This document shows, in pieces, positions 1,433-42,451 of a stretch of 42,451 bases of DNA; position 1 is the stretch's first letter; the number at the start of each line of letters is the position of its first letter. A program made the position numbers and the translations under genes. Source of the DNA: Neocallimastix lanati (nom. inval.). Lineage: Eukaryota > Neocallimastigomycota > Neocallimastigomycetes > Neocallimastigales > Neocallimastigaceae. The notes under the pieces are model-generated. The model worked only from the letters and a program-made list of their open reading frames with translations, ran no database searches and was not told where the DNA came from. The stretch spans positions 1 through 42,451 of the forward strand of contig JACVTC010000338.1 of the NCBI GenBank assembly GCA_016946835.1, written 5' to 3'.

Positions 1433-2735
1433 AAATTTTGATAATTTTTATTTATTATAAATAGAATATTATAGAAATTATTAGTGCTTTATGGCTTAAA
1501 TAATCAGACCAATAATACAAGAATGATCTATTTAATTAATAATTTGTATTATTTTTTATCTAAGATTCTATTTTAGAAAGAAAACATATTTTCTTTAACT
1601 TTCCATAATTATTAATTATTAGTAATATTTACAGATAAATTCGATTAATTATTTTTAAGTAAAAATTATAAATAGGTTTAAAATTTTATAATAAAATATT
1701 TCAAACTCACATTTTATTAATCAGTCATAATTCAAAAATTATATTAACTAATTAATTAATAAATAATAATTAATATTTATATTTAATAAATTAATAAAAC
1801 TAGTTTTTTATAAACAAATTTCAAATTACTTAAGTCTTACGAATCTATTGTGTATAAAAGTTTAATTTAAATTAAATTAATCCCCTTTTACAATAGAAAA
1901 ATGATATTGTTAATGCACTATCTAAGTTTTAATAATTCAAATCAATTATTAATATATATATATATAATTGTTAACTAAACTATTTCAATAATTTACATTT
2001 ATATTTTAATTAATTTTATAATATTTAATGTTATAAGAATATATATTAATATTTTTTATAATAAATTGTAACGTTTACAACCAATAGGTCTACATAAAAA
2101 GTAATTCGTTTTCTTGAAAAAAATTTGTTTCATTAATATTTTTATTAAAATATAAAATTTTTTATTATTTTTTTATTATTATTAATTAGTTATTGTAATT
2201 TTTATTAATTACTTTTAATAGATAATAAAATACAAATTAAAATTATTTTTTTATTAAAATTATTTAACTTTTTTTGAATTAATTTAAGATTAAAAAATTC
2301 GAAAAATTAAGTTTTCTATATCTAGAAAATGAATTTTATTGAAAAATTATAAAATAAATATTAAAATAGAATTATAATTTATTTATTATATAATATTAAC
2401 AAAGAAATTTCCTATAATAATTTAATTAATATAACGAAAATAATTAAATTTAAAAGTGTATGAAACGAACCAAAGTAGTTTAGCTTCATTGTCATGATGT
2501 ATTAAACCAGACATAAAATTTAAATCTTAAAATTCTTTACAAAAATGATATTAATTAAAGACCTAAATTTTAAAATTAGTCTTAAAATTAGAATCTAACA
2601 TATTTTTTAAATTCATTATTTTCATTTAATAGATATTTTAACTTAATTAAATTTTAAATAATTACTATATTTCTATTTAATTTTCATGAAATAATATGGG
2701 TATTATTAATTTTTACAATTTAAAGCACTAAATTA

Positions 2736-2741
<6 letters not shown>

Positions 2742-2774
<33 letters not shown>
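2742..2774 (+). repeat. Poly-T tract, T33
   Basis: Uninterrupted T run about 70 bp inside the unit start. It recurs at the same place in every unit with lengths I count as 33, 38, 37, 39 and 34, the most length-variable point in the array. It lies downstream of the Asn gene of the preceding unit, beyond that gene's T6 terminator. Confidence 0.95.
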
Positions 2775-2781
<7 letters not shown>

Positions 2782-2896
2782 ATATATTTATCATTGAATT
2801 AATAAATAATTTATTATTATTCATTGTATTTTATGAGATAAAAAAGATTTATATAAAAATATAAAAAATATAAAAAAAATAAAAAATATTAATATT

Positions 2897-2962
2897 AAAA
2901 ATAAAAATAAAAATAAAAATAAAAATAAAAATAAAAATAAAAATAAAAATAAAAAATAAAAA
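2897..2962 (+). repeat. (AAAAAT)n hexanucleotide tract
   Basis: About eleven copies of AAAAAT, the last slightly irregular, between the poly-T tract and the Ala gene. It is present in all five units. Confidence 0.9.
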
Positions 2963-3128
2963 TATTGTATTGCTATTGACTATATTATTTATTAAAGTAA
3001 AATAATTATTAAATGTTGTCTTTTACGTAGTAAATTATTATACCATTATATTAAAATGAATAAATAATTTATTTTATATTTTACTAACCTATAATTATTA
3101 ATTTAAATAAAAAAAATAAGGTTCAAAA

Positions 3129-3201
3129 TGGAGAATCCGGGCGTCGATCCCGGTGCCTCTCGCATGCTAAGCGAGCGCTCTACCATTTGAGCTAATTCCC
3201 C
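3129..3201 (-). tRNA. trnA(AGC): tRNA-Ala (AGC)
   Basis: A 73-nt cloverleaf with anticodon AGC in the loop TTAGCAT. The acceptor stem carries G3:U70, the identity pair by which alanyl-tRNA synthetase recognises its tRNA, and the discriminator is A. The T-loop starts with A instead of the usual T (ATCGACG), as in some other eukaryotic alanine tRNAs. A34 should be deaminated to inosine, to read GCU, GCC and GCA. No intron and no encoded CCA. The terminator is T4 directly after the gene (3125-3128) with a T8 backup at 3109-3116. A start-less Asn-rich open frame on the same strand runs into the 5' end of this gene. Confidence 0.98.
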
Positions 3202-3479
3202 TTCTTTGATAATATTTCTATGTTGTCTATACTTGTGGTACGAAGTAAATTTATAATTTTATTATCATTATTATTGTTATTATTATCATTATTATCATTA
3301 CTATCATTATTATCATTATTATTATTACTATCACTATTATTGTTATTATTGTTATAAATATTATTATAATTGTTATTAATATTATTATTATTTTTGTTAA
3401 TATTATTATTACTAGTACTAATATTAATGTTATTATTATTTTTATTATTTAATTTTTGGTATAAGTCGTTTTTATCTAT
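3192..3479 (-). other. Start-less Asn-rich open frame
   Basis: On the minus strand one frame stays open for 95 codons, from just after a TAA (3480-3482) to a TAG inside the D-arm of tRNA-Ala (3192-3194). It has no ATG. The middle is an imperfect trinucleotide tract (ATT with ATC, ACT and GTT on plus) that reads mostly Asn with Asp and Ser. The flanks look more like ordinary protein: IDKNDLYQKL before the tract, INLLRTTSIDNIEILSKKGN after it. It may be a relic exon of an Asn-rich protein, or simply a consequence of triplet repetition. The frame is probably not expressed, as it has no start and ends in a tRNA gene. Confidence 0.3.
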
Positions 3480-3871
3480 TTAATTTTTTATCTAAATAAA
3501 TTAAAATTGTAATTTTTATAATTTTTATTACTTTTAAGATTGTATTTAATTTTTATAATTTTTATTACTTTTAATACTGTATTTATTTTTAATTATATAA
3601 AAGAAAAATCTAATATAAAATAAGCAAATAAATAATGTTAATAATTAATACTTAAATTTTACATAATAAATAATATATTATATATATTATATATTATATA
3701 TATTATATATTTTATGTATTTTATGTATTTTATGTATTCTATATATTCTATAATAAATCATATATCTAAAAATTGTATTATTAAGTAAATAAATATTATT
3801 TTAAATATTATAAACTATTTCTATTTGACATATTCATTAAAGAAACAAAAAAAAAGAAAAAACCTAAAAAG
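3202..3871. other. Spacer Ala-His: triplet tract and TTTTATGTA repeats
   Basis: Contains the degenerate ATT/ATC tract (about 3258-3450), two near copies of a TAATTTTTATAATTTTTATT motif near 3510-3570, a TATTATA-rich stretch from 3670, and a 9-bp repeat TTTTATGTA at 3710-3736 with a degenerate fourth copy to 3745. The 50 bp just upstream of tRNA-Ala is more mixed in sequence than the rest. No RNA gene other than the flanking tRNAs is seen. Confidence 0.85.
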
Positions 3872-3944
3872 TGCCGTTCCCAGGATTCGAACCTGGGTCG
3901 AGTCGGCCACAACGACTTATACTAAACCACTATACGAGAACGGC
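3872..3944 (-). tRNA. trnH(GTG): tRNA-His (GTG)
   Basis: A 73-nt cloverleaf with anticodon GTG in the loop TTGTGGC. The acceptor pairs GCCGTTC with GAACGGC and the discriminator is A, as in other eukaryotic histidine tRNAs. The extra G-1 that HisRS needs is normally added by Thg1. Here the genome already has a G at -1 (C at 3945 on plus), so the primary transcript could carry it. The terminator is T5 one base after the gene (3866-3870). Upstream sequence contains TATATAAATAAAG about 13-25 bp before the gene, possibly TATA-like but hard to judge in this AT background. Confidence 0.98.
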
Positions 3945-4296
3945 CAAAATCACTTTATTTATATAAGTTTGAAAAGTATAAATTCAATATAGATTAACAT
4001 TAAATAATGGTAATTATTTTACTAACTTCATATTTATGTATAAAAAATTTCTTGACAATTTGATAATAATTTTAATTTAATAATTATTAGAAATCTGAAT
4101 TTTGATAATAAATTTTCATTAAAATATTAAACATTATTAAAATTAATAATAATATTAATCTTTAATTTTTTTTTAATTTCATATTATTTTTATTATTAAT
4201 GAATTTAATAAATAAATAAATATATATAGAAGTACTATTAAATGAATAAAAACTGAAAACGCATAAAAATTAAAAATTTAAAAAATTAAATAAAAA
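3945..4296. other. Spacer His-Phe
   Basis: Nearly pure A+T with short AATA and TAAA runs. I see no gene. The last bases (4292-4296) are the T5 terminator of the Tyr-Phe transcript. Confidence 0.8.
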
Positions 4297-4369
4297 TGCG
4301 ACCTCCGTGGCTTGAACACGGGACCTTTAGATCTTCAGTCTAACGCTCTCCCAGCTGAGCTAAGGTCGC
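4297..4369 (-). tRNA. trnF(GAA): tRNA-Phe (GAA)
   Basis: A 73-nt cloverleaf with anticodon GAA in the loop CTGAAGA, acceptor GCGACCT against AGGTCGC and discriminator A. It lies 11 nt after tRNA-Tyr on the same strand. The spacer has no T-run longer than three, so the two genes are probably one Tyr-Phe precursor ending at the T5 at 4292-4296. No intron. Confidence 0.98.
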
Positions 4370-4380
4370 TAAATTTTAAA

Positions 4381-4465
4381 TCCTTCGAACCGGAGTCGAA
4401 CCAGTGACATGTTGATTACTATATAATTCTACAGTCAACCGCTCTACCAACTGAGCTATCGAAGG
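4381..4465 (-). tRNA. trnY(GTA): tRNA-Tyr (GTA) with 12-nt intron
   Basis: 85 nt in the gene, 73 nt after splicing. The anticodon stem GTTGA/TCAAC encloses CTGTAG, a 12-nt AT-rich insert and A. The insert sits one base 3' of the anticodon, the standard place for nuclear tRNA introns, so maturation needs the tRNA splicing endonuclease and ligase. The acceptor pairs CCTTCGA with TCGAAGG and the discriminator is A. The gene is first in a probable Tyr-Phe dicistron. No other gene in the unit has an intron. Confidence 0.97.
4417..4428 (-). other. tRNA-Tyr intron
   Basis: 12 nt, AATTATATAGTA in gene orientation, between G37 and A38. It has the same length in units 1-4; the unit 5 copy has one extra base (13 nt). 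Confidence 0.9.
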
Positions 4466-5269
4466 ATCTTGTAAAATTATGCCAGAGAACCAATATAAAA
4501 TATACTTATTATATGTTAAACATAAAACTCTAGATTTTTAAAGAATATATTTTAATATATATCATAAAATGGATACAATTTAATGGTTTAATAATATCAT
4601 TAATAAATATTTATATTTTAATTAAAAAATTATAATTAAGTACTTTAATTTATAAATTTATATATTATATTAAAAAAAAAAAAAAATTTTTAGAAATTTA
4701 ATTAAAATATTTTTATTAAATTAATTAATAGGTTTATATATAAATATAATATCATGAATTATAAATAGCTATAAAAATAGATAAATTTTTTATAATTGAA
4801 AATATTACTATTTTCTATATTGTATTTTATAAGTATTAATATTATTTATGAATTTTAATTAAAATATTTATTATATAATTATATATTGATATACACATTT
4901 CTTTATATTGTAATTAAAACTTAAATACATTATTATAATTATTTTATGTCTTTGTTTTTATTATTTTTTTTTAAAATATTTATTTATATTTTTAATTTTT
5001 CGTTATTTATTATTTTTGATTATCATAACTTTTATTATTAATTTAAGAATTTTTAAAATTTCGTCTAATACTTTAAAAATTGCTTACATATATATTTTAT
5101 TATAACTAAATAAAAAATAAATAAAATATAAATTATAAATAATATATAACATTTTTATATCTTAATTTATCATTATCATTAAATCATTTATTATTTGTAT
5201 TAATAGAAATAAAAAAATAAAAATAAAAAAAAAAGAACGAAATATTGATACCAAAATTTAGTAAAAAAG
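4466..5269. other. Spacer Tyr-Leu
   Basis: About 800 bp of A+T-rich sequence with an A-run near 4673 and many short TAAAA and TTAAT runs. I see no open frame, RNA gene or longer repeat. The first 40 bp upstream of tRNA-Tyr is more mixed in sequence. Confidence 0.8.
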
Positions 5270-5352
5270 TGAACAGAGTGGGATTCGAACCCACGCCTAC
5301 GAATAGATCACGGCCTTAACGTGACGCCTTAGACCAACTCGGCCATCTGTCC
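5270..5352 (-). tRNA. trnL(AAG): tRNA-Leu (AAG)
   Basis: An 83-nt class II tRNA with anticodon AAG in the loop TTAAGGC. A34 should be edited to inosine, to read CUU and CUC. The long variable arm closes as CTA/TAG over a TTCG loop, a stable UUCG tetraloop. The acceptor is GGACAGA against TCTGTTC with discriminator A, the usual leucine base. AAG-type leucine tRNA is a eukaryotic signature. The gene stands alone, with a T6 terminator at 5263-5268. Confidence 0.98.
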
Positions 5353-5584
5353 AAGTTAATAATTTTTAATTGAAATTTTCTTTTCTACCAATACTAAATT
5401 ATCATTATATGATAATAATGTTATCAATGATATATACTATGCTAAAATTATTAACTAAATAATATAAATAGTAAATAGTGCAATTAATCATAATCAATTT
5501 TAATTTTATTGGTAAATAATATATATGTATTTAAATTTTAATATACTTTAATCAAAATATAGAAAAAAAAAAGATCAAAAGTAA

Positions 5585-5656
5585 TTCCGCATCGGGGAAT
5601 CGAACCCCGGCCGCCACGGTGAAAGCGTGGAATCCTAGCCACTGGACCAATGCGGA
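5585..5656 (-). tRNA. trnE(TTC): tRNA-Glu (TTC)
   Basis: 72 nt, anticodon TTC in the loop CTTTCAC, acceptor TCCGCAT against ATGCGGA, discriminator A. It reads GAA and, by wobble, GAG; no CTC partner is in the unit. It is the first gene of the minus-strand block in its direction of transcription. Termination is at T4 (5577-5580), backed by T10 (5563-5572). Confidence 0.98.
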
Positions 5657-6780
5657 TCTTGTTATTTTAAACTTTCATTTCTTGCTTTTTTATTATATCT
5701 TTGTAGTACAAAATTTTTCAATAGGTTAGGATTATTAATTTTATTATTAATACTATTAAATTATTAAATTATTAATATTACTAAATTGTTACATTTTTTC
5801 TTAAATTTTATATAATTAAACTTTACATTATTTAAATTAATTGTTTAAAGTTATTTATTAATATACATTATTTAAATTAATTGTTTAAAGTTATTTATTA
5901 ATATCTTTTCATTTTTTTTCTTATTTAAATTTTTATTTATCTAGTATTATTTTATTAATATTTTTATTTTTTCTTTTTTTTTTTTATTTTTTAATTTTCT
6001 TTTTTCATTTTTGTCTTTATTTAATAAATAATATTTTTCAAGTTAATTGTAATACTTAAAAGTGAATTTGTTCGATTCAATATAATCTTAGCAAAACTTC
6101 TAAATATTATTTATAATATTAATAAACTAATATATATGCATTTCAATGTACTTAATTTAATATTTATTATTAATAATAAATAATTATTTTTAATTTTATT
6201 TCATTCTTAAATTAGTTTTGAAAATAACAAATATATATATATATATATTACTATTATTTTATAATGAAAAAAAAAAGAAAAAAAAAAAGTTAAAAAGTTA
6301 AATTAATATTAAAATATTATAAATTGTGAAAATTTTATATTTTATTTATTTATTTTATACTTTTAAGTTTAGTTATTAAATTTTAATTTACCTTATTTTT
6401 AATTTAGTTTTAGTTTTTCTGTTTGATTGTTCCATTATCTTCAAAAGTTTTTATAAGCTATTTTAATATTAAATATTATATATAAATTAAAATAAAATTA
6501 ACAGTTATTTATTTATTAAAATTATTTCCAATAAGTTTATTTAATTTCTTAAAATACTAAATTTTAATTTTTAATTATTTTTAAACATTTATATTATATA
6601 TTAATAAATATATTATTATTTAATTTAATAAATATATAATATATATTTAATTAATATATCTATTCAATTAATATATCTATTTAATTGAAGTGATATTGAT
6701 AATTTTATAAATAATTTATAAATATTTTATATTGTAAATTATTATACAATATAGAAAATTTTGAAAAATTTTGTCAGATT
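5657..6780. other. Long spacer between divergent Glu and Val
   Basis: At 1.1 kb this is the longest gene-free stretch of the unit. It separates the minus-strand block from the plus-strand Val-Ser pair. It contains an exact 40-bp tandem duplication (5825-5904), T-rich stretches at 5910-6010, a TA run at about 6231-6248 and A-runs at 6266-6288. No gene is seen. Confidence 0.8.
5825..5904 (+). repeat. 40-bp exact tandem duplication
   Basis: Two identical 40-bp copies (5825-5864 and 5865-5904), starting ACATTATTTAAATTAATTG. It recurs at 16054-16133, 26282-26361 and 32500-32579, so it predates the amplification of the unit. Confidence 0.92.
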
Positions 6781-6854
6781 GATTTCGTGGTGTAGTCGGT
6801 TATCACGTCTGTCTAACACACAGACGGTCCCCGGTTCGAATCCGGGCGAAATCA
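6781..6854 (+). tRNA. trnV(AAC): tRNA-Val (AAC), first copy
   Basis: A 74-nt cloverleaf with anticodon AAC in the loop CTAACAC, acceptor GATTTCG against CGAAATC, discriminator A. After A34-to-inosine editing it reads GUU, GUC and GUA. An identical second gene lies at 8469-8542. The next gene, Ser, starts 6 nt later (spacer TTATTT) with no T4, so a Val-Ser precursor is likely. Confidence 0.98.
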
Positions 6855-6860
6855 TTATTT

Positions 6861-6942
6861 GACAGCATGTCCGAGTGGTTAAGGAGTGTGACTAGAAATC
6901 ACATAGGCTCTGCCTGCGCAGGTTCAAGTCCTGCTGCTGTCG
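6861..6942 (+). tRNA. trnS(AGA): tRNA-Ser (AGA)
   Basis: An 82-nt class II tRNA with anticodon AGA in the loop CTAGAAA. The long variable arm (AGGC/GCCT over TCT), the main feature read by seryl-tRNA synthetase, is intact. Acceptor GACAGCA against TGCTGTC, discriminator G. It is second in the probable Val-Ser dicistron, which ends at T5 (6943-6947). It converges on the minus-strand Ile-Lys pair 310 bp away. Confidence 0.98.
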
Positions 6943-7251
6943 TTTTTGCTTTATTTTTATTATAAAAATGCAATTATACATTAAATTTTATATATTAAAA
7001 AACTCAAAAAAAAAAAAAAAAAAGTTAATATTAAAATGCAATATGAAATTTTTAGAAATTGTTATTTTTTTTTTTTTTTTTTTTTAATTTTTTTATTTTT
7101 TATTTTATTTTTATTTTTTTTTTTTTGTTTTGTTTTTATTTATTTATTTATTTTTTTTTATTTTCATTTATTTATTTGCATTTTTATTTTCTTTTTTATT
7201 TTTATTTTATTAAAAACAAAAACTAAAAACAAAAATTAAAATATAAAAAAG
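6943..7251. repeat. Low-complexity zone between convergent Ser and Lys
   Basis: T5 terminator, then an A-run (about 7006-7023), then about 140 bp of nearly pure T with scattered A (about 7067-7210), then A-rich sequence ending in T6 (minus strand, 7245-7250). A 67-codon ATG frame at 7036-7239 is almost all Phe, Ile and Leu and comes from the T-run. I do not count it as a gene. Confidence 0.9.
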
Positions 7252-7324
7252 CGCCCAACGTGGGGGTCGAACCCACAACCTTGAGATTAAGAGTCTCACG
7301 CTCTACCGATTGAGCTAGCCGGGC
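7252..7324 (-). tRNA. trnK(CTT): tRNA-Lys (CTT), minus-strand copy
   Basis: 73 nt, anticodon CTT in the loop CTCTTAA, acceptor GCCCGGC against GTTGGGC, discriminator G. It is second in a probable Ile-Lys dicistron (8-nt spacer TTTCATTT), with a T6 terminator at 7245-7250. It is identical to the plus-strand gene at 11887-11959, although the sequence around the two differs. Confidence 0.98.
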
Positions 7325-7332
7325 AAATGAAA

Positions 7333-7406
7333 TGCTCTGTGCAGGGGTCGAACCTGCGACCTTGGCGTTATTAGCACCACGCTCTAACCGACTGAGCTAA
7401 CAGAGC
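7333..7406 (-). tRNA. trnI(AAT): tRNA-Ile (AAT), minus-strand copy
   Basis: 74 nt, anticodon AAT in the loop CTAATAA, acceptor GCTCTGT against ACAGAGC, discriminator A. With inosine at 34 it reads AUU, AUC and AUA; no TAT isoacceptor is in the unit. It heads the minus-strand Ile-Lys pair and is identical to the plus-strand gene at 11797-11870. Together the two Ile-Lys pairs form inverted arms about 4.4 kb apart. Confidence 0.98.
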
Positions 7407-7472
7407 TATTTTATCTTTATTTTGAAAAATATTTTTGAAATAGGGTATATTATTTAATATATTATATAATAT

Positions 7473-7580
7473 ATTATTTATTATTATTTATTATTATTTA
7501 TTATTATTTATTATTATTTATTATTATTTATTATTATTTATTATTATTTATTATTATTTATTATTATTTATTATTATTTA

Positions 7581-7628
<48 letters not shown>

Positions 7629-7652
7629 TATTATTATTTATTATTATTTATT
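7473..7652 (+). repeat. 10-bp minisatellite TTATTATTTA with (TTA)n core
   Basis: More than ten head-to-tail TTATTATTTA copies, an inner run of pure TTA (about 7584-7626), then three more 10-bp copies. It is present in units 1, 2 and 4. In unit 3 only a short piece is left, joined to a different minisatellite. Confidence 0.92.
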
Positions 7653-7976
7653 ATTAATACTTAAATTTATAAATTAGAAATATAATATAATACGCATATA
7701 TTATTGTATTATGTAGTTTATACTATCAAAAAAATATTTAAATAAAATTATAAGTAATTTAAATATTTGTAATATTATATTATTCTAATAAATTTAGAAA
7801 TATTTAATTTTTATTTTATTTTTAGCAAAAAAAAATATATTTTAAGTAATAATATTAAAAAAAATTTTTTTATAATATTTTGTAAGTATTAAAACGAATA
7901 TTTTATTTTAATAAAAAAAAATCAAAAGTAAAGATACTAAAAAAAAAATACTATAAAAGAATTCATTATATATTAA

Positions 7977-7977
<1 letters not shown>

Positions 7978-8045
<68 letters not shown>

Positions 8046-8056
8046 AATAAATAAAT
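7978..8056 (+). repeat. (TAA)n followed by (AAAT)n
   Basis: About 20 TAA triplets passing into five AAAT tetramers. Recurs in units 2 and 4; missing from unit 3 with the deleted block. Confidence 0.9.
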
Positions 8057-8390
8057 ATTATTATTAAATTTTATTAATCTATATCAAAGCAGTTGATAAA
8101 TAATTATTAATTAATTAATAATTAATACGAAATATTAGAATTAAAATCTAAACTAGTCAAAGACTATGATTTTATAAATTATATTGTAATATTATTATTT
8201 AATATTAAATATTGTGATTAATAATTTCATACTAAATTTAAATATAATTTTAGATTATATCAATATTCTAAAATATTATATATTAATGATTGAAATATTT
8301 TACTATGGGTAAAATACTTTAATTACTATTGTCTGAAAGCCTAAAAGGATCTAAGGAAAATAAAACAGGAATATTAAAATTCTTAAATGC

Positions 8391-8464
8391 GGGCTGTTAG
8401 TTCAGTTGGATAGAACGCTTGACTACGGATCAAGAGGTCGCAGGTTCAAGTCCTGCATAGCTCG
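8391..8464 (+). tRNA. trnR(ACG): tRNA-Arg (ACG)
   Basis: 74 nt, anticodon ACG in the loop CTACGGA, acceptor GGGCTGT against ATAGCTC (two G:U pairs), discriminator G. With inosine it reads CGU, CGC and CGA. AGA, which should be the main arginine codon in such an AT-rich genome, has no tRNA in the unit. Val follows after 4 nt, exactly TTTT, a minimal Pol III terminator; readthrough would give an Arg-Val precursor. The gene is lost in unit 3. Confidence 0.98.
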
Positions 8465-8468
8465 TTTT

Positions 8469-8542
8469 GATTTCGTGGTGTAGTCGGTTATCACGTCTGT
8501 CTAACACACAGACGGTCCCCGGTTCGAATCCGGGCGAAATCA
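8469..8542 (+). tRNA. trnV(AAC): tRNA-Val (AAC), second copy
   Basis: Identical over 74 nt to the gene at 6781-6854, while upstream sequence matches only for TTGA and downstream only for TTT. The duplication is therefore confined to the gene, through gene-sized transposition, conversion or strong constraint. T8 follows directly (8543-8550). Confidence 0.98.
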
Positions 8543-8730
8543 TTTTTTTTACATCATTTTCTAGATATAAATTAAAAATGCTAAAAAAAAGAAAAAATTT
8601 AATATTTTTAATTTAATTATTATAGCAAATATTAATTTTTTGTTTCTCAAAATATTTTCGTTTCGTAAAAATAAAAGAACTAAAATGTACAATACATATA
8701 AATATATTTAGCTTTAGCAATAAAAAGAAC

Positions 8731-8813
8731 TGCCAAGAGTGAGGTTCGAACTCACGCCTCTTTCGAGACCGCATCTTAAGTGCGGCGCCTTAGACCGACT
8801 CGGCCATCTTGGC
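8731..8813 (-). tRNA. trnL(TAA): tRNA-Leu (TAA)
   Basis: An 83-nt class II tRNA with anticodon TAA in the loop CTTAAGA, reading UUA and probably UUG. The variable arm is CTC/GAG closed by a GAAA (GNRA) tetraloop. Acceptor GCCAAGA against TCTTGGC, discriminator A. It should serve the commonest leucine codon in AT-rich coding sequence. It stands alone on minus, with terminator T5 at 8722-8726. Missing from unit 3. Confidence 0.98.
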
Positions 8814-9079
8814 TAAATATAAGTTTATTTTCTTTTTAATTTGTTTTTAAGATCAGTTTCTTTTCATTTAATTATTTTTTTAATTTAAAAAATTAATCTA
8901 TAGCATATTATAATTTTATGGTACTATTAATGGAAAAATAAATTGATATATGTCTAAACGAACAAATAATAATAAAATTAATTATTAATGTTATAATAAA
9001 TATAATTATATTAAGTATATGGATAAATTATATTTAATGATATAGTATAATATTATTAATAAAGATTATAAGTGAACTT

Positions 9080-9112
<33 letters not shown>

Positions 9113-9510
9113 TATATGTATTTATTTATTTATGCTTTTTCAGTTTTAAATTTTATAATTAATCTTATAATCTTATAATCTTATAATTTGAAATACCCAT
9201 AAAATAAATTAATTATAATAAAATGTAATAATAAAAAATATTTATATTTATAAGAATGCCAATGATTTTCTAAAGCATAAATAAAAAATATTTATTTTTA
9301 AATAATTATTATTATATAATTTTAATAAAAGATCAAATATAATAGCATTACTAAGTATGAATAATGAATAAAATAGTAAATAAATAAAATATATAATAAA
9401 ATAAAAATCTGTAACTAAAAATAATGTTGAAATAATTATGTTATTGATATATATTATATGTACTTAGGATAAGTCTTTCTTTTCAACAGAATTCGGAAAA
9501 AACAACTAAG
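8814..9510. other. Spacer between divergent Leu-TAA and Gly
   Basis: A+T-rich, with (TAA)n at 9081-9111 and three 8-bp AATCTTAT copies at 9161-9184. The 40 bp before Gly (about 9468-9510) is more mixed, containing CTTTTCAACAGAATTCGG, and is a candidate upstream element. No gene is seen. Confidence 0.8.
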
Positions 9511-9581
9511 GCATTGATGGTTTAGTGGTATAATTACCGCCTGCCACGCGGTAGACCCGGGTTCGATTCCCGGTCAATGCA
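9511..9581 (+). tRNA. trnG(GCC): tRNA-Gly (GCC)
   Basis: 71 nt, anticodon GCC in the loop CTGCCAC, acceptor GCATTGA against TCAATGC, discriminator A. It reads GGC and GGU. The next gene, Thr, starts after only TTT, too short to stop Pol III reliably, so Gly-Thr is probably one precursor. No TCC glycine tRNA (for GGA) is in the unit. Confidence 0.98.
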
Positions 9582-9584
9582 TTT

Positions 9585-9657
9585 GCCTTCATGGCTCAGT
9601 CGGCAGAGCATCCCCCTAGTAAGGGGAAGGTCATCGGTTCGATTCCGATTGAAGGCA
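9585..9657 (+). tRNA. trnT(AGT): tRNA-Thr (AGT)
   Basis: 73 nt, anticodon AGT in the loop CTAGTAA between CCCC and GGGG, acceptor GCCTTCA against TGAAGGC, discriminator A. With inosine it reads ACU, ACC and ACA. It is second in the Gly-Thr pair with its 3-nt spacer. T5 follows at 9661-9665. Confidence 0.98.
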
Positions 9658-10253
9658 TTATTTTTATTTTATTTTTTTTTTTTTTTAATTTCAAAAAGTA
9701 ATATATAAATTAAATTTTTAATAATTATTGCATTTCATCAGTGTATATGTTAATTTACAAAATTAGAAAAGTTGAATTTCATCTTATAATATTTTAACTT
9801 TTACATTTAATTAAATTATTTATAATGTTTTAACTTTCACATTTAATTAAATTATTTACAGTTTTAATTTATGTTCTATACAAGGAATTATTATTTATTA
9901 CGATATTTTTTTTTTTTTTTTTTATCTATTATGAATTAAATGATTTTCACACTAATATTTAAATAAATAAATAATTAATTACGCAATTATTAAAGTTAAC
10001 ATATACTTTTTTAAAATAAAAATAAATAAAATAATAAATATAAATATATATATATATTTATAATTATTATATAATATATTTTAAACTTAAATATTACTAA
10101 ATTTTTTAATTTAAATCAAAATTTCATTTTAACTTTAAATTGTATATTTGATATTAATTTAAAAATATCAAATGATAAAATCAAAATAAATTTTATTTTC
10201 TATATTTTTATGGGGTTGTTAGTTGTTTAAAAATAAATTTAAAAACAAGATAA
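9658..10253. other. Spacer Thr-Pro with 36-bp duplication
   Basis: T-rich start, an imperfect 36-bp tandem duplication (9788-9823 and 9824-9859, three differences), a T-run near 9905-9923, then A+T-rich sequence. TATGGGGTTGTTAGTTG at about 10209-10225 is the only G-rich spot, 30-45 bp before Pro. Confidence 0.8.
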
Positions 10254-11870: not shown

Positions 11871-11886
11871 AACTGAATGTAAAATT

Positions 11887-12812: not shown

Positions 12813-12814
12813 TA

Positions 12815-31044: not shown

Positions 31045-31055
31045 TAAATTTTAAA

Positions 31056-33529: not shown

Positions 33530-33535
33530 TTATTT

Positions 33536-33617: not shown

Positions 33618-33927
33618 TTTTTGCTTTATTTTTATTATAAAAATGCAATTATACATTAAATTTTATATATTAAAAAACTCAAAAAAAAAAAAAAAAAAAG
33701 TTAATATTAAAATGCAATATGAAATTTTTAGAAATTGTTATTTTTTTTTTTTTTTTTTTTTAATTTTTTTATTTTTTATTTTATTTTTATTTTTTTTTTT
33801 TTGTTTTGTTTTTATTTATTTATTTATTTTTTTTTATTTTCATTTATTTATTTGCATTTTTATTTTCTTTTTTATTTTTATTTTATTAAAAACAAAAACT
33901 AAAAACAAAAATTAAAATATAAAAAAG

Positions 33928-34000
33928 CGCCCAACGTGGGGGTCGAACCCACAACCTTGAGATTAAGAGTCTCACGCTCTACCGATTGAGCTAGCCGGGC
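33928..34000 (-). tRNA. trnK(CTT): tRNA-Lys (CTT) minus copy, unit 4
   Basis: Copy of 7252-7324, no difference seen. Confidence 0.98.
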
Positions 34001-34008
34001 AAATGAAA

Positions 34009-34082
34009 TGCTCTGTGCAGGGGTCGAACCTGCGACCTTGGCGTTATTAGCACCACGCTCTAACCGACTGAGCTAACAGAGC
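34009..34082 (-). tRNA. trnI(AAT): tRNA-Ile (AAT) minus copy, unit 4
   Basis: Copy of 7333-7406, no difference seen. Confidence 0.98.
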
Positions 34083-34256
34083 TATTTTATCTTTATTTTG
34101 AAAAATATTTTTGAAATAGGGTATATTATTTAATATATTATATAATATATTATTTATTATTATTTATTATTATTTATTATTATTTATTATTATTTATTAT
34201 TATTTATTATTATTTATTATTATTTATTATTATTTATTATTATTTATTATTATTTA

Positions 34257-34301
<45 letters not shown>

Positions 34302-34649
34302 TATTATTATTTATTATTATTTATTATTAATACTTAAATTTATAAATTAGAAATATAATATAATACGCATATATTATTGTATTATGTAGTTTATACTATC
34401 AAAAAAATATTTAAATAAAATTATAAGTAATTTAAATATTTGTAATATTATATTATTCTAATAAATTTAGAAATATTTAATTTTTATTTTATTTTTAGCA
34501 AAAAAAAATATATTTTAAGTAATAATATTAAAAAAAATTTTTTTATAATATTTTGTAAGTATTAAAACGAATATTTTATTTTAATAAAAAAAAATCAAAA
34601 GTAAAGATACTAAAAAAAAAATACTATAAAAGAATTCATTATATATTAA

Positions 34650-34718
<69 letters not shown>

Positions 34719-35063
34719 AATAAATAAATATTATTATTAAATTTTATTAATCTATATCAAAGCAGTTGATAAATAATTATTAATTAATTAATAATTAATA
34801 CGAAATATTAGAATTAAAATCTAAACTAGTCAAAGACTATGATTTTATAAATTATATTGTAATATTATTATTTAATATTAAATATTGTGATTAATAATTT
34901 CATACTAAATTTAAATATAATTTTAGATTATATCAATATTCTAAAATATTATATATTAATGATTGAAATATTTTACTATGGGTAAAATACTTTAATTACT
35001 ATTGTCTGAAAGCCTAAAAGGATCTAAGGAAAATAAAACAGGAATATTAAAATTCTTAAATGC

Positions 35064-35137
35064 GGGCTGTTAGTTCAGTTGGATAGAACGCTTGACTACG
35101 GATCAAGAGGTCGCAGGTTCAAGTCCTGCATAGCTCG
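35064..35137 (+). tRNA. trnR(ACG): tRNA-Arg (ACG), unit 4
   Basis: Copy of 8391-8464, TTTT spacer to Val kept. Confidence 0.98.
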
Positions 35138-35141
35138 TTTT

Positions 35142-35215
35142 GATTTCGTGGTGTAGTCGGTTATCACGTCTGTCTAACACACAGACGGTCCCCGGTTCGA
35201 ATCCGGGCGAAATCA
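35142..35215 (+). tRNA. trnV(AAC): tRNA-Val (AAC) second copy, unit 4
   Basis: Copy of 8469-8542, no difference seen. Confidence 0.98.
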
Positions 35216-35403
35216 TTTTTTTTACATCATTTTCTAGATATAAATTAAAAATGCTAAAAAAAAGAAAAAATTTAATATTTTTAATTTAATTATTATAGCA
35301 AATATTAATTTTTTGTTTCTCAAAATATTTTCGTTTCGTAAAAATAAAAGAACTAAAATGTACAATACATATAAATATATTTAGCTTTAGCAATAAAAAG
35401 AAC

Positions 35404-35486
35404 TGCCAAGAGTGAGGTTCGAACTCACGCCTCTTTCGAGACCGCATCTTAAGTGCGGCGCCTTAGACCGACTCGGCCATCTTGGC
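35404..35486 (-). tRNA. trnL(TAA): tRNA-Leu (TAA), unit 4
   Basis: Copy of 8731-8813, no difference seen. Confidence 0.98.
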
Positions 35487-35752
35487 TAAATATAAGTTTA
35501 TTTTCTTTTTAATTTGTTTTTAAGATCAGTTTCTTTTCATTTAATTATTTTTTTAATTTAAAAAATTAATCTATAGCATATTATAATTTTATGGTACTAT
35601 TAATGGAAAAATAAATTGATATATGTCTAAACGAACAAATAATAATAAAATTAATTATTAATGTTATAATAAATATAATTATATTAAGTATATGGATAAA
35701 TTATATTTAATGATATAGTATAATATTATTAATAAAGATTATAAGTGAACTT

Positions 35753-35785
<33 letters not shown>

Positions 35786-36183
35786 TATATGTATTTATTT
35801 ATTTATGCTTTTTCAGTTTTAAATTTTATAATTAATCTTATAATCTTATAATCTTATAATTTGAAATACCCATAAAATAAATTAATTATAATAAAATGTA
35901 ATAATAAAAAATATTTATATTTATAAGAATGCCAATGATTTTCTAAAGCATAAATAAAAAATATTTATTTTTAAATAATTATTATTATATAATTTTAATA
36001 AAAGATCAAATATAATAGCATTACTAAGTATGAATAATGAATAAAATAGTAAATAAATAAAATATATAATAAAATAAAAATCTGTAACTAAAAATAATGT
36101 TGAAATAATTATGTTATTGATATATATTATATGTACTTAGGATAAGTCTTTCTTTTCAACAGAATTCGGAAAAAACAACTAAG

Positions 36184-36254
36184 GCATTGATGGTTTAGTG
36201 GTATAATTACCGCCTGCCACGCGGTAGACCCGGGTTCGATTCCCGGTCAATGCA
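36184..36254 (+). tRNA. trnG(GCC): tRNA-Gly (GCC), unit 4
   Basis: Copy of 9511-9581, TTT spacer to Thr kept. Confidence 0.98.
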
Positions 36255-36257
36255 TTT

Positions 36258-36330
36258 GCCTTCATGGCTCAGTCGGCAGAGCATCCCCCTAGTAAGGGGA
36301 AGGTCATCGGTTCGATTCCGATTGAAGGCA
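36258..36330 (+). tRNA. trnT(AGT): tRNA-Thr (AGT), unit 4
   Basis: Copy of 9585-9657, no difference seen. Confidence 0.98.
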
Positions 36331-36926
36331 TTATTTTTATTTTATTTTTTTTTTTTTTTAATTTCAAAAAGTAATATATAAATTAAATTTTTAATAATTA
36401 TTGCATTTCATCAGTGTATATGTTAATTTACAAAATTAGAAAAGTTGAATTTCATCTTATAATATTTTAACTTTTACATTTAATTAAATTATTTATAATG
36501 TTTTAACTTTCACATTTAATTAAATTATTTACAGTTTTAATTTATGTTCTATACAAGGAATTATTATTTATTACGATATTTTTTTTTTTTTTTTTTATCT
36601 ATTATGAATTAAATGATTTTCACACTAATATTTAAATAAATAAATAATTAATTACGCAATTATTAAAGTTAACATATACTTTTTTAAAATAAAAATAAAT
36701 AAAATAATAAATATAAATATATATATATATTTATAATTATTATATAATATATTTTAAACTTAAATATTACTAAATTTTTTAATTTAAATCAAAATTTCAT
36801 TTTAACTTTAAATTGTATATTTGATATTAATTTAAAAATATCAAATGATAAAATCAAAATAAATTTTATTTTCTATATTTTTATGGGGTTGTTAGTTGTT
36901 TAAAAATAAATTTAAAAACAAGATAA

Positions 36927-36998
36927 GGCTCATTGGTCTAGTAGTATGATTCTCGCTTTGGGTGCGAGAGGTCCCGGGTTCAATTCCCGGATGAGCCC
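36927..36998 (+). tRNA. trnP(TGG): tRNA-Pro (TGG), unit 4
   Basis: Copy of 10254-10325, no difference seen. Confidence 0.98.
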
Positions 36999-37351
36999 CT
37001 CTTTTTTAATTTTGACTTTTTATAATAGTTATTACTTTTATAAATTCATTTTTAAAATCTACTGATAATTAATATCAGAATTTAAATAAAAAAGCGAAGC
37101 AAAAATATTTTGAAAAAAGGTAATAAATGTATTAAAATATTAATTTTATTCATAATTTTAGCAATATTTTATAATTTAAATAATAAATATATATAAATAT
37201 AAATAAATATCTAAAATATAATTAATTAATACAAATAAAGTAATAAATACTATCTTAAAATCATATATTAATAATAAATTTAAACACTTATCAATTATAT
37301 TAAATTGTAAGGTATACAAGAATATTATATATTTAATAATTTACTAAATAT

Positions 37352-37423
37352 GGTTCTATAGTGTAGCGGTTAGCACATTGGACTTTGAATCCAATAACTC
37401 GAGTTCAAATCTCGATAGGACCT
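37352..37423 (+). tRNA. trnQ(TTG): tRNA-Gln (TTG), unit 4
   Basis: Copy of 10679-10750, no difference seen. Confidence 0.98.
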
Positions 37424-37626
37424 AATTTTTAATTATATTTTTAACAATTTTTAACAATTTTAACAATTTTAAAAATTACTAAATATTAATACATTAACTT
37501 TTATTTTTATCTTTATCTTTAGTTTTTTAGCATTTAATAATAATAATATTTTTTGTAAAAAAAAAAAAGAAAATATTCTAATAAAAATAAAATTATATTG
37601 TTAATAAAAAAAATGAAAAAGGCTTA

Positions 37627-37698
37627 CTCCCAGGCGGGGAATTGAACCCCGGTCTCCCGCGTGACAGGCGGGGATACTCACCACTATACTACCTGGGA
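37627..37698 (-). tRNA. trnD(GTC): tRNA-Asp (GTC), unit 4
   Basis: Copy of 10954-11025, no difference seen. Confidence 0.98.
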
Positions 37699-38468
37699 TG
37701 GCTTTAATTATCTTTTGATCTTATTTTGTCATATACACTATGTCACCGAATTTTAAAGTATGATCATATAATTAAAGCATTTAATTAGAATTTAGAATTT
37801 CATTAAATAAAATATATTCAATATAAATTTATTTCAACATTTAAATCATGTTATACTTATTTAATTGTATTTTGTACTTAAATTTAATTGTATTTTGTAC
37901 TTAATTTTAAAGATAAAGATTTTTATGAAAACTTAATTTTTTATTTTTATTATTTTAATAAATATATATAAATATATATAAATTAAATATATAATATTTA
38001 TAAATATTAAGAATTAATCAATAAAACATACTATAACATTGAAATTAAAATAAATATTATATTATTCAATTATTTAATATTATATAATCAAAAATGTATA
38101 ATTCATTTTAATTATTTGCTTTTGACTTTTTTTATTTTTATTTTTATTGCTTTCTTTTATTTTATTTATTATTTTATTTTATTTATTATTTTATTTTATT
38201 TATTATTTTATTTTATTTATTATTTTATTTTATTTATTATTTTTATTTTTAATATATTGTATTCGAGTTTAAATAATATTTAATTGTTAATTAATTATTT
38301 CATTTTCAGTTGAATAATAATTCATAAATTTAATTTTTATCTCCATAATTATTTACAAATTTATTTTTAAAAATTTTTTTCATAAATACTACATAAAAAC
38401 AAAAATTATTTTATAACCATTTGATTTTTAGTAGTACAAGATTTATTCTTAATCATAATTATAGGCAA

Positions 38469-38542
38469 GCTCTGTTAGCTCAGTCGGTTAGAGCGTGGTG
38501 CTAATAACGCCAAGGTCGCAGGTTCGACCCCTGCACAGAGCA
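38469..38542 (+). tRNA. trnI(AAT): tRNA-Ile (AAT) plus copy, unit 4
   Basis: Copy of 11797-11870, full 74 nt. Confidence 0.98.
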
Positions 38543-38558
38543 AACTGAATGTAAAATT

Positions 38559-38631
38559 GCCCGGCTAGCTCAATCGGTAGAGCGTGAGACTCTTAATCTC
38601 AAGGTTGTGGGTTCGACCCCCACGTTGGGCG
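38559..38631 (+). tRNA. trnK(CTT): tRNA-Lys (CTT) plus copy, unit 4
   Basis: Copy of 11887-11959, full 73 nt. Confidence 0.98.
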
Positions 38632-39205
38632 ATATTTTTTGGTAGTATTCTTTTAATCAAATAGCCTAAGTATATATAAATATTTTAATTAAACTACTTT
38701 TTAATGTATATATATATATATATATTTTAATTAAACTACTTTTAATATATATATATATAATATATATTTTAATTAAAACTACTTTTTAATATATATATAT
38801 GTTTTAATGATAAATCAATATTTATATATATAATAAATAATAAGTTATGACTAACCACTAGTTTCATAAATTAAATTTTAAATTTGAATTATATAATATA
38901 TATATTTTTAATTTTATAAATTACATATATATATAATATTTTTCTTATTATATATATTTATATATATATTAATGAAATATTAAATAAATTGTATATTGTT
39001 ATTAATTGAAAATATTTAATATGATAACTATAATTTTATAACATTTAAAATTTTAATACAATAGAATTATTTTTAATTTAAAATTAATTTGTCTAACGTT
39101 TATTTTGATATTAATATTTATTTTGATATTAAAATTTATTTTGAAATTAAAATTTACTAATATCTTAAAATAGATATTAATTATTATGAATTAACAAATT
39201 TTAAA

Positions 39206-39274
39206 CTTAAAATAAGAAAATATGCTAATTTATTTAAATATATTGTTTAAGTTAACATATTTTCTTATTTTAAG
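39206..39274. repeat. 19-bp inverted repeat, unit 4
   Basis: Copy of 12534-12602, both arms intact. Confidence 0.9.
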
Positions 39275-39411
39275 AAAATATAAAAACAAAAAATAATAAA
39301 TAATATATATATATATATATATATTTTTATCATAAGAATTTCCAAAAATTATTAAGTAATATAACGAGAAAAAAAAATTTAAAGCAGGAAAAAACGAAAC
39401 CAGAAAGCGTA

Positions 39412-39484
39412 GCCCTGTTAGCTCAGTTGGTAGAGCGTGCGGCTTTTAACCGCAAGGTCGGGGGTTCGAGCCCCCCATAGGGCG
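39412..39484 (+). tRNA. trnK(TTT): tRNA-Lys (TTT), unit 4
   Basis: Copy of 12740-12812, 2-nt spacer to Asn kept. Confidence 0.98.
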
Positions 39485-39486
39485 TA

Positions 39487-39560
39487 GCTCTTATGGCGCA
39501 ATTGGCTAGCGCGTTCGGCTGTTAACCGAGAGGTTGGTGGTTCAAGCCCACCTAGGAGCG
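39487..39560 (+). tRNA. trnN(GTT): tRNA-Asn (GTT), unit 4
   Basis: Copy of 12815-12888, no difference seen. Confidence 0.98.
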
Positions 39561-39630
39561 TTTCTTTTTTATTATTTTCATGAAATAATATTGGTATTAT
39601 TAATTTTTTACAATTTAAAGCACTAAATTA

Positions 39631-39677
<47 letters not shown>

Positions 39678-40025
39678 ATATATTTATCATTGAATTAATA
39701 AATAATTTATTATTATTCATTGTATTTTATGAGATAAAAAAGATTTATATAAAAATATAAAAAATATAAAAAAAATAAAAAATATTAATATTAAAAATAA
39801 AAATAAAAATAAAAATAAAAATAAAAATAAAAATAAAAATAAAAATAAAAAATAAAAATATTGTATTGCTATTGACTATATTATTTATTAAAGTAAAATA
39901 ATTATTAAATGTTGTCTTTTACGTAGTAAATTATTATACCATTATATTAAAATGAATAAAATAATTTATTTTATATTTTACTAACCTATAATTATTAATT
40001 TAAATAAAAAAAATAAGGTTCAAAA

Positions 40026-40098
40026 TGGAGAATCCGGGCGTCGATCCCGGTGCCTCTCGCATGCTAAGCGAGCGCTCTACCATTTGAGCTAATTCCCC
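40026..40098 (-). tRNA. trnA(AGC): tRNA-Ala (AGC), unit 5
   Basis: Copy of 3129-3201, no difference seen. Confidence 0.98.
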
Positions 40099-40376
40099 TT
40101 CTTTGATAATATTTCTATGTTGTCTATACTTGTGGTACGAAGTAAATTTATAATTTTATTATCATTATTATTGTTATTATTATCATTATTATCATTACTA
40201 TCATTATTATCATTATTATTATTACTATCACTATTATTGTTATTATTGTTATAAATATTATTATAATTGTTATTAATATTATTATTATTTTTGTTAATAT
40301 TATTATTACTAGTACTAATATTAATGTTATTATTATTTTTATTATTTAATTTTTGGTATAAGTCGTTTTTATCTAT
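40089..40376 (-). other. Start-less Asn-rich open frame, unit 5
   Basis: Copy of 3192-3479, still open. Confidence 0.3.
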
Positions 40377-40768
40377 TTAATTTTTTATCTAAATAAATTA
40401 AAATTGTAATTTTTATAATTTTTATTACTTTTAAGATTGTATTTAATTTTTATAATTTTTATTACTTTTAATACTGTATTTATTTTTAATTATATAAAAG
40501 AAAAATCTAATATAAAATAAGCAAATAAATAATGTTAATAATTAATACTTAAATTTTACATAATAAATAATATATTATATATATTATATATTATATATAT
40601 TATATATTTTATGTATTTTATGTATTTTATGTATTCTATATATTCTATAATAAATCATATATCTAAAAATTGTATTATTAAGTAAATAAATATTATTTTA
40701 AATATTATAAACTATTTCTATTTGACATATTCATTAAAGAAACAAAAAAAAAGAAAAAACCTAAAAAG

Positions 40769-40841
40769 TGCCGTTCCCAGGATTCGAACCTGGGTCGAGT
40801 CGGCCACAACGACTTATACTAAACCACTATACGAGAACGGC
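40769..40841 (-). tRNA. trnH(GTG): tRNA-His (GTG), unit 5
   Basis: Copy of 3872-3944, no difference seen. Confidence 0.98.
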
Positions 40842-41192
40842 CAAAATCACTTTATTTATATAAGTTTGAAAAGTATAAATTCAATATAGATTAACATTAA
40901 ATAATGGTAATTATTTTACTAACTTCATATTTATGTATAAAAAATTTCTTGACAATTTGATAATAATTTTAATTTAATAATTATTAGAAATCTGAATTTT
41001 GATAATAAATTTTCATTAAAATATTAAACATTATTAAAATTAATAATAATATTAATCTTTAATTTTTTTTAATTTCATATTATTTTTATTATTAATGAAT
41101 TTAATAAATAAATAAATATATATAGAAGTACTATTAAATGAATAAAAACTGAAAACGCATAAAAATTAAAAATTTAAAAAATTAAATAAAAA

Positions 41193-41265
41193 TGCGACCT
41201 CCGTGGCTTGAACACGGGACCTTTAGATCTTCAGTCTAACGCTCTCCCAGCTGAGCTAAGGTCGC
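41193..41265 (-). tRNA. trnF(GAA): tRNA-Phe (GAA), unit 5
   Basis: Copy of 4297-4369, no difference seen. Confidence 0.98.
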
Positions 41266-41276
41266 TAAATTTTAAA

Positions 41277-41362
41277 TCCTTCGAACCGGAGTCGAACCAG
41301 TGACATGTTGATTAACTATATAATTCTACAGTCAACCGCTCTACCAACTGAGCTATCGAAGG
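41277..41362 (-). tRNA. trnY(GTA): tRNA-Tyr (GTA) with 13-nt intron, unit 5
   Basis: Copy of 4381-4465 with one extra base in the intron (13 nt instead of 12), so the spliced tRNA is unchanged. The extra base falls in the indel-rich stretch and may be a consensus error. Confidence 0.96.
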
Positions 41363-42166
41363 ATCTTGTAAAATTATGCCAGAGAACCAATATAAAATAT
41401 ACTTATTATATGTTAAACATAAAACTCTAGATTTTTAAGAATATATTTTAATATATATCATAAAATGGATACAATTTAATGGTTTAATAATATCATTAAT
41501 AAATATTTATATTTTAATTAAAAAATATATAATTAAGTACTTTAATTTATAAATTTATATATTATATTAAAAAAAAAAAAAAAATTTTTAGAAATTTAAT
41601 TAAAATATTTTTATTAAATTAATTAATAGGGTTTATATATAAAAGTATAATATCATGAATTATAAATAGCTATAAAAATAGATAAATTTTTTATAATTGA
41701 AAAATATTACTATTTCTATATTGTATTTTATAAGTATTAATATTATTTATGAATTTTAATTAAAATATTTATTATATAATTATACTATTGATATACACAT
41801 TTCTTTATATTGTAATTAAAACTTAAATACATTATTATAATTATTTTATGTCTTTGTTTTATTATTTTTTTTTAAAATATTTATTTATATTTTAATTTTC
41901 GTTATTTATTATTTTTGATTATCATAACTTTTATTATTAATTTAAGAATTTTAAAATTTCGTCTAATACTTTAAAATTGCTTACATATATATTTTATTAT
42001 AACTAAATAAAAAATAAATAAAATATAAATTATAAATAATATATAACATTTTTATATCTTAATTTATCATTATCATTAAATCATTTATTATTTGTATTAA
42101 TAGAAATAAAAAAATAAAAATAAAAAAAAAAGAACGAAATATTGATACCAAAATTTAGTAAAAAAG

Positions 42167-42249
42167 TGAACAGAGTGGGATTCGAACCCACGCCTACGAA
42201 TAGATCACGGCCTTAACGTGACGCCTTAGACCAACTCGGCCATCTGTCC
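42167..42249 (-). tRNA. trnL(AAG): tRNA-Leu (AAG), unit 5
   Basis: Copy of 5270-5352, no difference seen. It is the last gene in the window; the following 202 bp are the spacer towards Glu. Confidence 0.98.
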
Positions 42250-42451
42250 AAGTTAATAATTTTTAATTGAAATTTTCTTTTCTACCAATACTAAATTATC
42301 ATTATATGATAATAATGTTATCAATGATATATACTATGCTAAAATTATTAACTAAATAATATAAATAGTAAATAGTGCAATTAATCATAATCAATTTTAA
42401 TTTTATTGGTAAATAATATATATGTATTTAAATTTTAATATACTTTAATCA

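Follow-up and report, generated by a model that had tools for sequence, protein, structure and literature searches.

In eukaryotes, transfer RNA (tRNA) genes mostly lie dispersed, each changing in number independently of the others. Nuclear ribosomal DNA (rDNA) forms tandem, homogenised, multicopy arrays on chromosomes that supply an essential RNA. Genes for tRNA are known in tandem arrays too, and the Xenopus unit is reportedly 3.18 kb long with eight tRNA genes. In Entamoeba, tandem repeats of 25 different unit types, none with more than 5 tRNA genes, have AT-rich spacers and units that are uniform within an array; they hold almost all tRNA genes, some being dispersed (PMC2652664). In human 1q23.3, a 7.3-kb unit contains five tRNA genes for four amino acids on both strands (PMC4041453). 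Tandem oocyte tRNA arrays occur in Xenopus (PMC11500080), and large tRNA clusters occur in teleost fish and Nematostella (PMC2888827). Here, we describe a tandem tRNA array on contig C266 of an anaerobic gut fungus. The window analysed is the whole contig of 42,451 bases, in an assembly of 199,045,447 bases and 762 contigs. The array consists of 10.2-kb units with 22 tRNA genes each, and we conclude with good confidence that it is a chromosomal, rDNA-like tandem array that acts as the main nuclear tRNA supply together with its relatives, the arrays forming three families descended from one ancestral unit.

Self-comparison of the window gave a repeat period of 10,229 bp, running head-to-tail from position 2670 to the contig end. 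Results of the Rfam search showed 85 tRNAs above gathering score (84 by ARAGORN), with bit scores of 52.9-70.2 (cut-off 29). The 30-nt junction of one gene pair occurred 3 times in the window and 0 times in 100 shuffles; these scores and the shuffle result exclude a chance origin of the array. The preliminary description had reported an array at 2681..42451 with 85 tRNA genes on both strands and at least five 10.2-kb units carrying the same 22 genes. The array, its period and its gene number were borne out and its start was shifted to 2670, but the full gene set was found in three units, the third being shortened and the fifth cut. The window is divided as follows.

1..2669: left non-array flank, homologous over its full length to C160:89397-92130 (95.6%), with a ~0.6-kb dispersed repeat (~179-770)
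2670..12893: unit 1, 10,224 bp, 22 tRNA genes
12894..23122: unit 2 (reference), 10,229 bp, 22 tRNA genes
23123..29338: unit 3, 6,216 bp (4,013 bp less than unit 2), 14 tRNA genes
29339..39565: unit 4, 10,227 bp, 22 tRNA genes
39566..42451: unit 5, 5 tRNA genes, ends at the contig end

The three full units (1, 2 and 4) were mutually 99.83-99.94% identical, and 82 of the 85 tRNA genes were letter-for-letter copies of those in unit 2. The window array thus shows two marks of a tandem multi-tRNA array, namely head-to-tail multi-gene units and uniformity among units. Unit 3 lacked eight genes (Arg, one Val, Leu(TAA), Gly, Thr, Pro, Gln and Asp). The three non-identical genes were the second Ile and Lys of unit 3, with a 1-nt deletion in each, and the Tyr of unit 5; these divergent copies lie at 28246-28406 in the shortened unit and at 41276-41363 near the contig end. 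The deletions in the shortened unit fall in C runs and perhaps reflect residual long-read error, perhaps decay.

The genes of the reference unit are listed below.

13358..13430, minus strand: tRNA-Ala(AGC), single (Rfam)
14101..14173, minus strand: tRNA-His(GTG), single (Rfam; 42/42 genome matches on array contigs)
14526..14694, minus strand: Tyr(GTA, short intron)-Phe(GAA) pair, 10-nt gap
15499..15581, minus strand: tRNA-Leu(AAG), single
15814..15885, minus strand: tRNA-Glu(TTC), single
17010..17171, plus strand: Val(AAC)-Ser(AGA) pair, 4-nt gap
17481..17635, minus strand: Ile(AAT)-Lys(CTT) pair, 8-nt gap
18620..18771, plus strand: Arg(ACG)-Val(AAC) pair, 2-nt gap
18960..19042, minus strand: tRNA-Leu(TAA), single
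19740..19886, plus strand: Gly(GCC)-Thr(AGT) pair, 2-nt gap
20483..20554, plus strand: tRNA-Pro(TGG), single
20908..20979, plus strand: tRNA-Gln(TTG), single
21183..21254, minus strand: tRNA-Asp(GTC), single (38/38 genome matches on array contigs)
22026..22188, plus strand: Ile(AAT)-Lys(CTT) pair, second copy, 15-nt gap
22969..23117, plus strand: Lys(TTT)-Asn(GTT) pair, 2-nt gap

Counting each pair once, the unit comprises 15 transcription units, 8 single genes and 7 pairs. Its 22 genes serve 17 amino acids with 19 anticodons (Val(AAC), Ile(AAT) and Lys(CTT) being present twice) and occupy 1,647 of the 10,229 bp. ARAGORN returned "???" for the Tyr gene; when introns were permitted, it called most copies Asn and one copy Tyr(GTA). 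From the likeness of this gene to a eukaryotic tRNA-Tyr sequence and its short intron, we take it to be Tyr. No other RNA family, including 5S, reached the Rfam gathering score in the window, and GC content was 9-22% per kb. The A34 anticodons and the long flanked contigs do not fit a mitochondrial origin, and a viral tRNA cluster was set aside on the same grounds. The collections searched for gene-pair junctions were viral and prokaryotic: IMG/VR had no match to any of three such patterns, and GTDB genome contigs had none to two of them.

The array shares tandem multi-tRNA units, AT-rich spacers and uniformity with those of Entamoeba, and differs in its fungal host and in gene number: a 22-gene, 10-13-kb unit for 17 amino acids, against at most 5 genes per unit (PMC2652664), places it outside the narrow Entamoeba type with about 25 unit types. 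E. histolytica also has complex short tandem repeats between genes and 5S RNA in some units (PMC2652664); Rfam detected no 5S in the fungal window. The human 1q23.3 array is similarly a large tandem unit with genes on both strands and units 98% identical, and its gene order was kept between human and mouse while the remaining unit diverged (PMC4041453). However, it is GC-rich and CTCF-bound, has five genes, and other copies of these are scattered (PMC4041453), whereas the fungal unit, AT-rich and with 22 genes, is not of the 1q23.3 type; no other His or Asp copy was found within 3 mismatches. The Xenopus arrays are likewise tandem, but with an oocyte-specific role (PMC11500080). The teleost and Nematostella clusters were described by clustering and pair statistics, with no unit of fixed 22-gene order in the text seen (PMC2888827). 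The preliminary description had compared the array with Entamoeba; its list of precedents was incomplete, omitting human 1q23.3 (PMC4041453) and Xenopus (PMC11500080). The Xenopus unit and gene set are reportedly smaller than the fungal ones. In the open-access literature, searched by title and start of abstract (most subscription journals lying outside this scope), no report of such an array in anaerobic fungi was found, nor, among the matches listed, of a tandem tRNA array in any fungus. The kind is known, and this is an extreme variant; to our knowledge its size, its completeness and a role that seems exclusive for two or more amino acids are novel.

Related arrays were traced across the assembly with a Phe-to-Glu probe and tRNA patterns, and three families were found. 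Family A, with the 10.2-kb unit, lies on C266, C350 and the right end of C160; family B (~11.0-kb unit) on C188, C304, C362, C353, C251 and the left end of C94; and family C (12.7-kb unit) on C252, C255, C288, C492, C523 and the left end of C160. The His gene was present in 9 A, 20 B and 13 C copies, from which we estimate some 40 assembled units, with tRNA genes numbering on the order of 850, several units being shortened. His-His spacing was regular within each family, with exceptions of 6,218 (C266), 8,545 (C350), 17,253 (C304), 19,093 (C362) and 3,430 (C255). One unit of C350, a contig of array sequence only, lacked Val-Ser-Lys-Ile.

All three families have an identical set, order and strand arrangement of the 22 genes. 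Between A and B, 1665/1665 aligned gene positions were identical, and spacers agreed at 8258/8431 aligned positions (98%), plus 1,116 gap letters. For the comparison of A with C, the C genes were taken from C288 (13 genes) and C252 (9 genes). Genes were equal at 1663/1665 aligned positions with 6 gap letters and, ARAGORN end differences aside, only a single internal 1-nt gap, in Leu(TAA), remained. The 20 A-C spacers compared agreed at 4140/6667 aligned positions with 4,125 gap letters, and a reversed-C control gave 3940 matches; with matches barely above this control, the A-C spacers are near background similarity. The seven pair gaps were nevertheless almost the same in A and C (10/10, 4/4, 8/7, 2/2, 2/2, 15/14 and 2/2 nt). 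These results suggest that A, B and C derive from one ancestral 22-gene unit.

The arrays are joined to non-array DNA at several places. Window 1-2695 matched C160:89397-92130 at 95.6%; on C160, array A begins mid-unit at 93,511, and C266 resembles the same junction minus about 4.25 kb (C160 ~92,131-96,382). Array A is joined to one common flank in two contigs and is therefore chromosomal. The array parts of C160 and C266 were 99.7-99.96% identical and their flanks about 4% apart, which points to two haplotypes with a homogenised array, or possibly two related loci. Family C occupies the left end of C160 up to 11,995, so that A and C lie about 81.5 kb apart in the same orientation on one 103-kb contig. 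The right edge of family B was found at C94:16,876, on a 288-kb contig, and C304 shares this edge at 99%.

An amplified or extrachromosomal element, circular or linear, was among the readings offered by the preliminary description. Near-identical head-to-tail units and the pure array of C350 would suit it. Such an element would lack flanks, yet array A has them on two contigs, B on two, one of them the 288-kb C94, and C on one, and A and C share one contig; A-C spacers near background similarity also suggest long residence. The flank shared by C160 and C266 and the B edge shared by C94 and C304 thus speak against this reading, which we regard as highly improbable. Duplication of one or a few real units by the assembler is equally improbable, although the array is known from assembled sequence, array contigs end inside repeats, and unit differences in the window are mostly short indels. 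At least five distinct structural variants occur among units at different places, which simple duplication would not give: the 4.0-kb-short unit (C266), the Val-Ser-Lys-Ile-less unit (C350), the odd His spacings (C304, C362 and C255) and a long terminal repeat (LTR) element (C255). Moreover, the three families have fixed differences, and the A and B edges each appear in two contigs.

Signs of function were examined in the 15 transcription units. A T run (>=4 T) began within 9 nt past all 15 last genes, in A and in C, but none of the 7 first genes of pairs had such a run in the following 60 nt in either family; T runs are frequent by chance in such AT-rich DNA, so this contrast weighs more than their presence. 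Upstream A-C identity was 0.67 from 0 to -20 (8/15 above null + 2 standard deviations (sd)), averaged 0.74 from -20 to -40 (13/15) and was 0.60 from -40 to -60 (5/15), where the null, identity between different genes, was 0.44-0.48 (0.44 at -20 to -40). Between -60 and -200 there was no excess, the five bins tested having 0, 0, 0, 0 and 1 of 15 above null + 2 sd, and downstream bins had 0-2 of 15 with means close to the null. No promoter word common to the transcription units was found besides AT-rich 6-mers. This upstream pattern is what would be expected of gene-specific RNA polymerase III (Pol III) elements kept by selection. With an intact fold, A34 anticodons, downstream T runs and conserved upstream elements, the genes have the predicted make-up of functional nuclear tRNA genes.

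Two-gene tRNA transcripts are known in yeasts, namely Arg-Asp in S. cerevisiae and Ser-Met in S. pombe. The seven fungal pairs, whose members are separated by 2-15 nt and whose first gene is followed by no T run in 7/7, are putative two-gene transcripts of this kind: in the yeast cases, two tRNA genes likewise lie a few nt apart with no terminator between them. The difference is that the gut fungus would have seven such pairs per unit.

The genomic location of individual tRNA genes was determined with plain tRNA patterns (<=3 mismatches) across the whole assembly; reversed-pattern controls gave 0 matches. All 42 tRNA-His matches were exact and lay on array contigs; C367 and C734, which were assigned by spacing, account for 2. 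All 38 tRNA-Asp matches were likewise exact and on array contigs, 3 of them on the spacing-assigned C367, C548 and C734. For tRNA-Asn, 41 of 58 matches were on array contigs (2 on the spacing-assigned C367 and C548). Most copies were thus in arrays for the three anticodons counted among the 19. Within 3 mismatches, the arrays are apparently the only source of tRNA-His and tRNA-Asp, and as far as counted this supports the suggestion of the preliminary description that the array could be the main tRNA supply. Of the traits of an rDNA locus, flanks and homogeneity are present, and sole supply apparently holds for His and Asp within 3 mismatches and not for Asn. For amino acids beyond these three, the arrays would be the main nuclear supply of elongator tRNAs.

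Several points weigh against this reading. The unit has no Met, Cys or Trp gene and also no Arg(TCT), and with 17 of the 58 Asn matches off the arrays, it is not the sole source for every amino acid. The genome-wide counts cover 3 of the 19 anticodons and 3 of the 17 amino acids (His, Asp and Asn), and His or Asp genes with more than 3 mismatches would escape the patterns, so a diverged copy elsewhere is possible. The small contigs C734 (B-like), C367 and C548 (both C-like) were placed in families from Asp/Asn/His gene distances only. Some array contigs are pure repeat, so that unit order and number are uncertain and copies are perhaps collapsed or duplicated. In a rough codon test of two dockerin cellulase genes (974 codons) and three kinase domains (773 codons), codons read by unit anticodons made up 88.7% and 89.3%, respectively, so overall coverage was alike. 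Finally, all the evidence is assembled sequence.

The Asn genes off the arrays are also what could be cited if most array copies were a silent reserve and other genes supplied the tRNAs, and according to the authors many Entamoeba array copies are perhaps inactive (PMC2652664). However, searches allowing 3 mismatches placed no His or Asp gene outside the array contigs, and A and C have both kept the upstream elements; a silent reserve is therefore unlikely, although part of the copies may be silent. A structural or boundary role in replication, chromatin or at chromosome ends, with tRNA output secondary, is less likely still; a chromosome-structural array was also among the readings of the preliminary description. 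There are precedents for such roles: Entamoeba arrays were suggested to stand in for telomeres (PMC2652664), and the human array to act as a boundary (PMC4041453). Here, A-C conservation was confined to the genes and about 60 nt upstream and did not include the remaining spacer, no exact doubled TTAGGG or TTTAGGG repeats were present in the loci examined, and every tRNA-His and tRNA-Asp copy found is in an array.

Other tRNA genes were seen outside the arrays. The genome-wide tRNA family search scored 63 of 9,278 first-look candidates, was top-heavy with one Arg-type gene and yields no genome total. Among the 17 off-array Asn(GTT) genes, 14 started 88-92 nt from a tRNA in this scored set (contigs C67, C78, C93, C235, C357, C610, C688 and C743). 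Where a gene of this scored set was read, on C555, it was Arg(TCT), and dispersed off-array Asn-Arg(TCT) two-gene units are likely. A second type of tRNA array was observed at C555:170,732-399,007, made up of Arg(TCT) genes, some of which sit in tandem units of ~540 bp (the 10 kb of locus L026 has 8 genes and L027 has 2); 34 of the 63 scored matches were on C555. A human initiator tRNA-Met probe gave 0 first-look candidates, which is uninformative on the location of Met genes.

Repeats were observed near and within the arrays. The ~0.6-kb dispersed repeat lies at window 179-770, C160:81630-82223 and C94:27201-27807, at or within ~12 kb of A and B array edges, which may be chance because 37 other whole or partial copies exist. 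The right flank of array B on C94 (L030:1877-5737) contains nested repeats: a dispersed element of ~1.1 kb, and a copia-type element of which gag, Pol_BBD and integrase pieces were recognised. A 3,121-bp element (L035:3102-6222; C255:6102-9222) is inserted in one unit of family C, at a distance of 16 bp upstream from tRNA-Gly, and has ~480-bp terminal direct repeats (98.6% identical, TG...CA), no frame longer than 109 aa and a possible 5-bp AAAAA duplication. It resembles tRNA-targeting LTR retrotransposons such as Ty3. On C24, where the search showed no array gene, a fragment at 1920780-1921410 shares 83% identity with the spacer of family C.

We take the host to be a member of the Neocallimastigomycota, from its dockerins on cellulases and its very AT-rich genome. 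At least 150 matches to CBM_10 (fungal dockerin) exceeded the cut-off, from 1,440 first-look candidates, whereas the 14 prokaryote genomes used as controls gave none. Similar proteins with a double dockerin at the N-terminus are encoded at two loci; in a PDB search, one of these proteins matched GH6 cellobiohydrolases, and its N-terminus matched endoglucanase 45A chains, which we take to be Piromyces dockerins. Anaerobic fungi have a GC content of 16-22% (PMC12341934). In the sequences of the codon test, Lys was encoded by AAG 50 and AAA 10 times in the cellulases (L009 and L010) and by AAG 21 and AAA 44 times in the kinase domains (L036-L038). The cellulase preference for AAG fits the doubled Lys(CTT) gene, five sequences being few.

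Taken together, the chromosomal, rDNA-like array could work as follows. Each 10-13-kb unit would offer Pol III 22 nuclear tRNA genes grouped into about 15 transcription units, of which 8 are single genes and 7 two-gene transcripts, every one with its own short upstream element and downstream T run. Most probably, unequal exchange multiplied an old 22-gene unit into arrays, and these now serve for tRNA much as an rDNA locus does. Near-identity within families is presumably maintained by unequal exchange and gene conversion, and selection would keep genes, pairing and promoters constant. The arrays resemble nuclear rDNA in being tandem, homogenised, chromosomal and, as assembled, multicopy, and differ from it in carrying tRNA genes as many small transcription units on both strands with Pol III-type signals. 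A stronger form, an "rDNA for tRNA" in which one ancient 22-gene unit in linked arrays provides essentially the whole elongator supply for 17 amino acids at fixed stoichiometry, with few copies elsewhere, is possible, and we hold it tentatively, leaning slightly to the side of doubt. If it is true, tRNA dosage for all 17 amino acids would rise and fall jointly with array length.

For work on long-read fungal assemblies, the arrays are a warning that tRNA gene counts hinge on the resolution of repeat arrays. For the fungus, they mean that 22 genes are locked in one unit, with order, pairing and promoters kept while the intervening DNA diverged to near background. This offers a natural test of whether Pol III gene clustering, fixed tRNA ratios or simple concerted evolution is the force that maintains such an array, and of whether tRNA supply tracks copy number.

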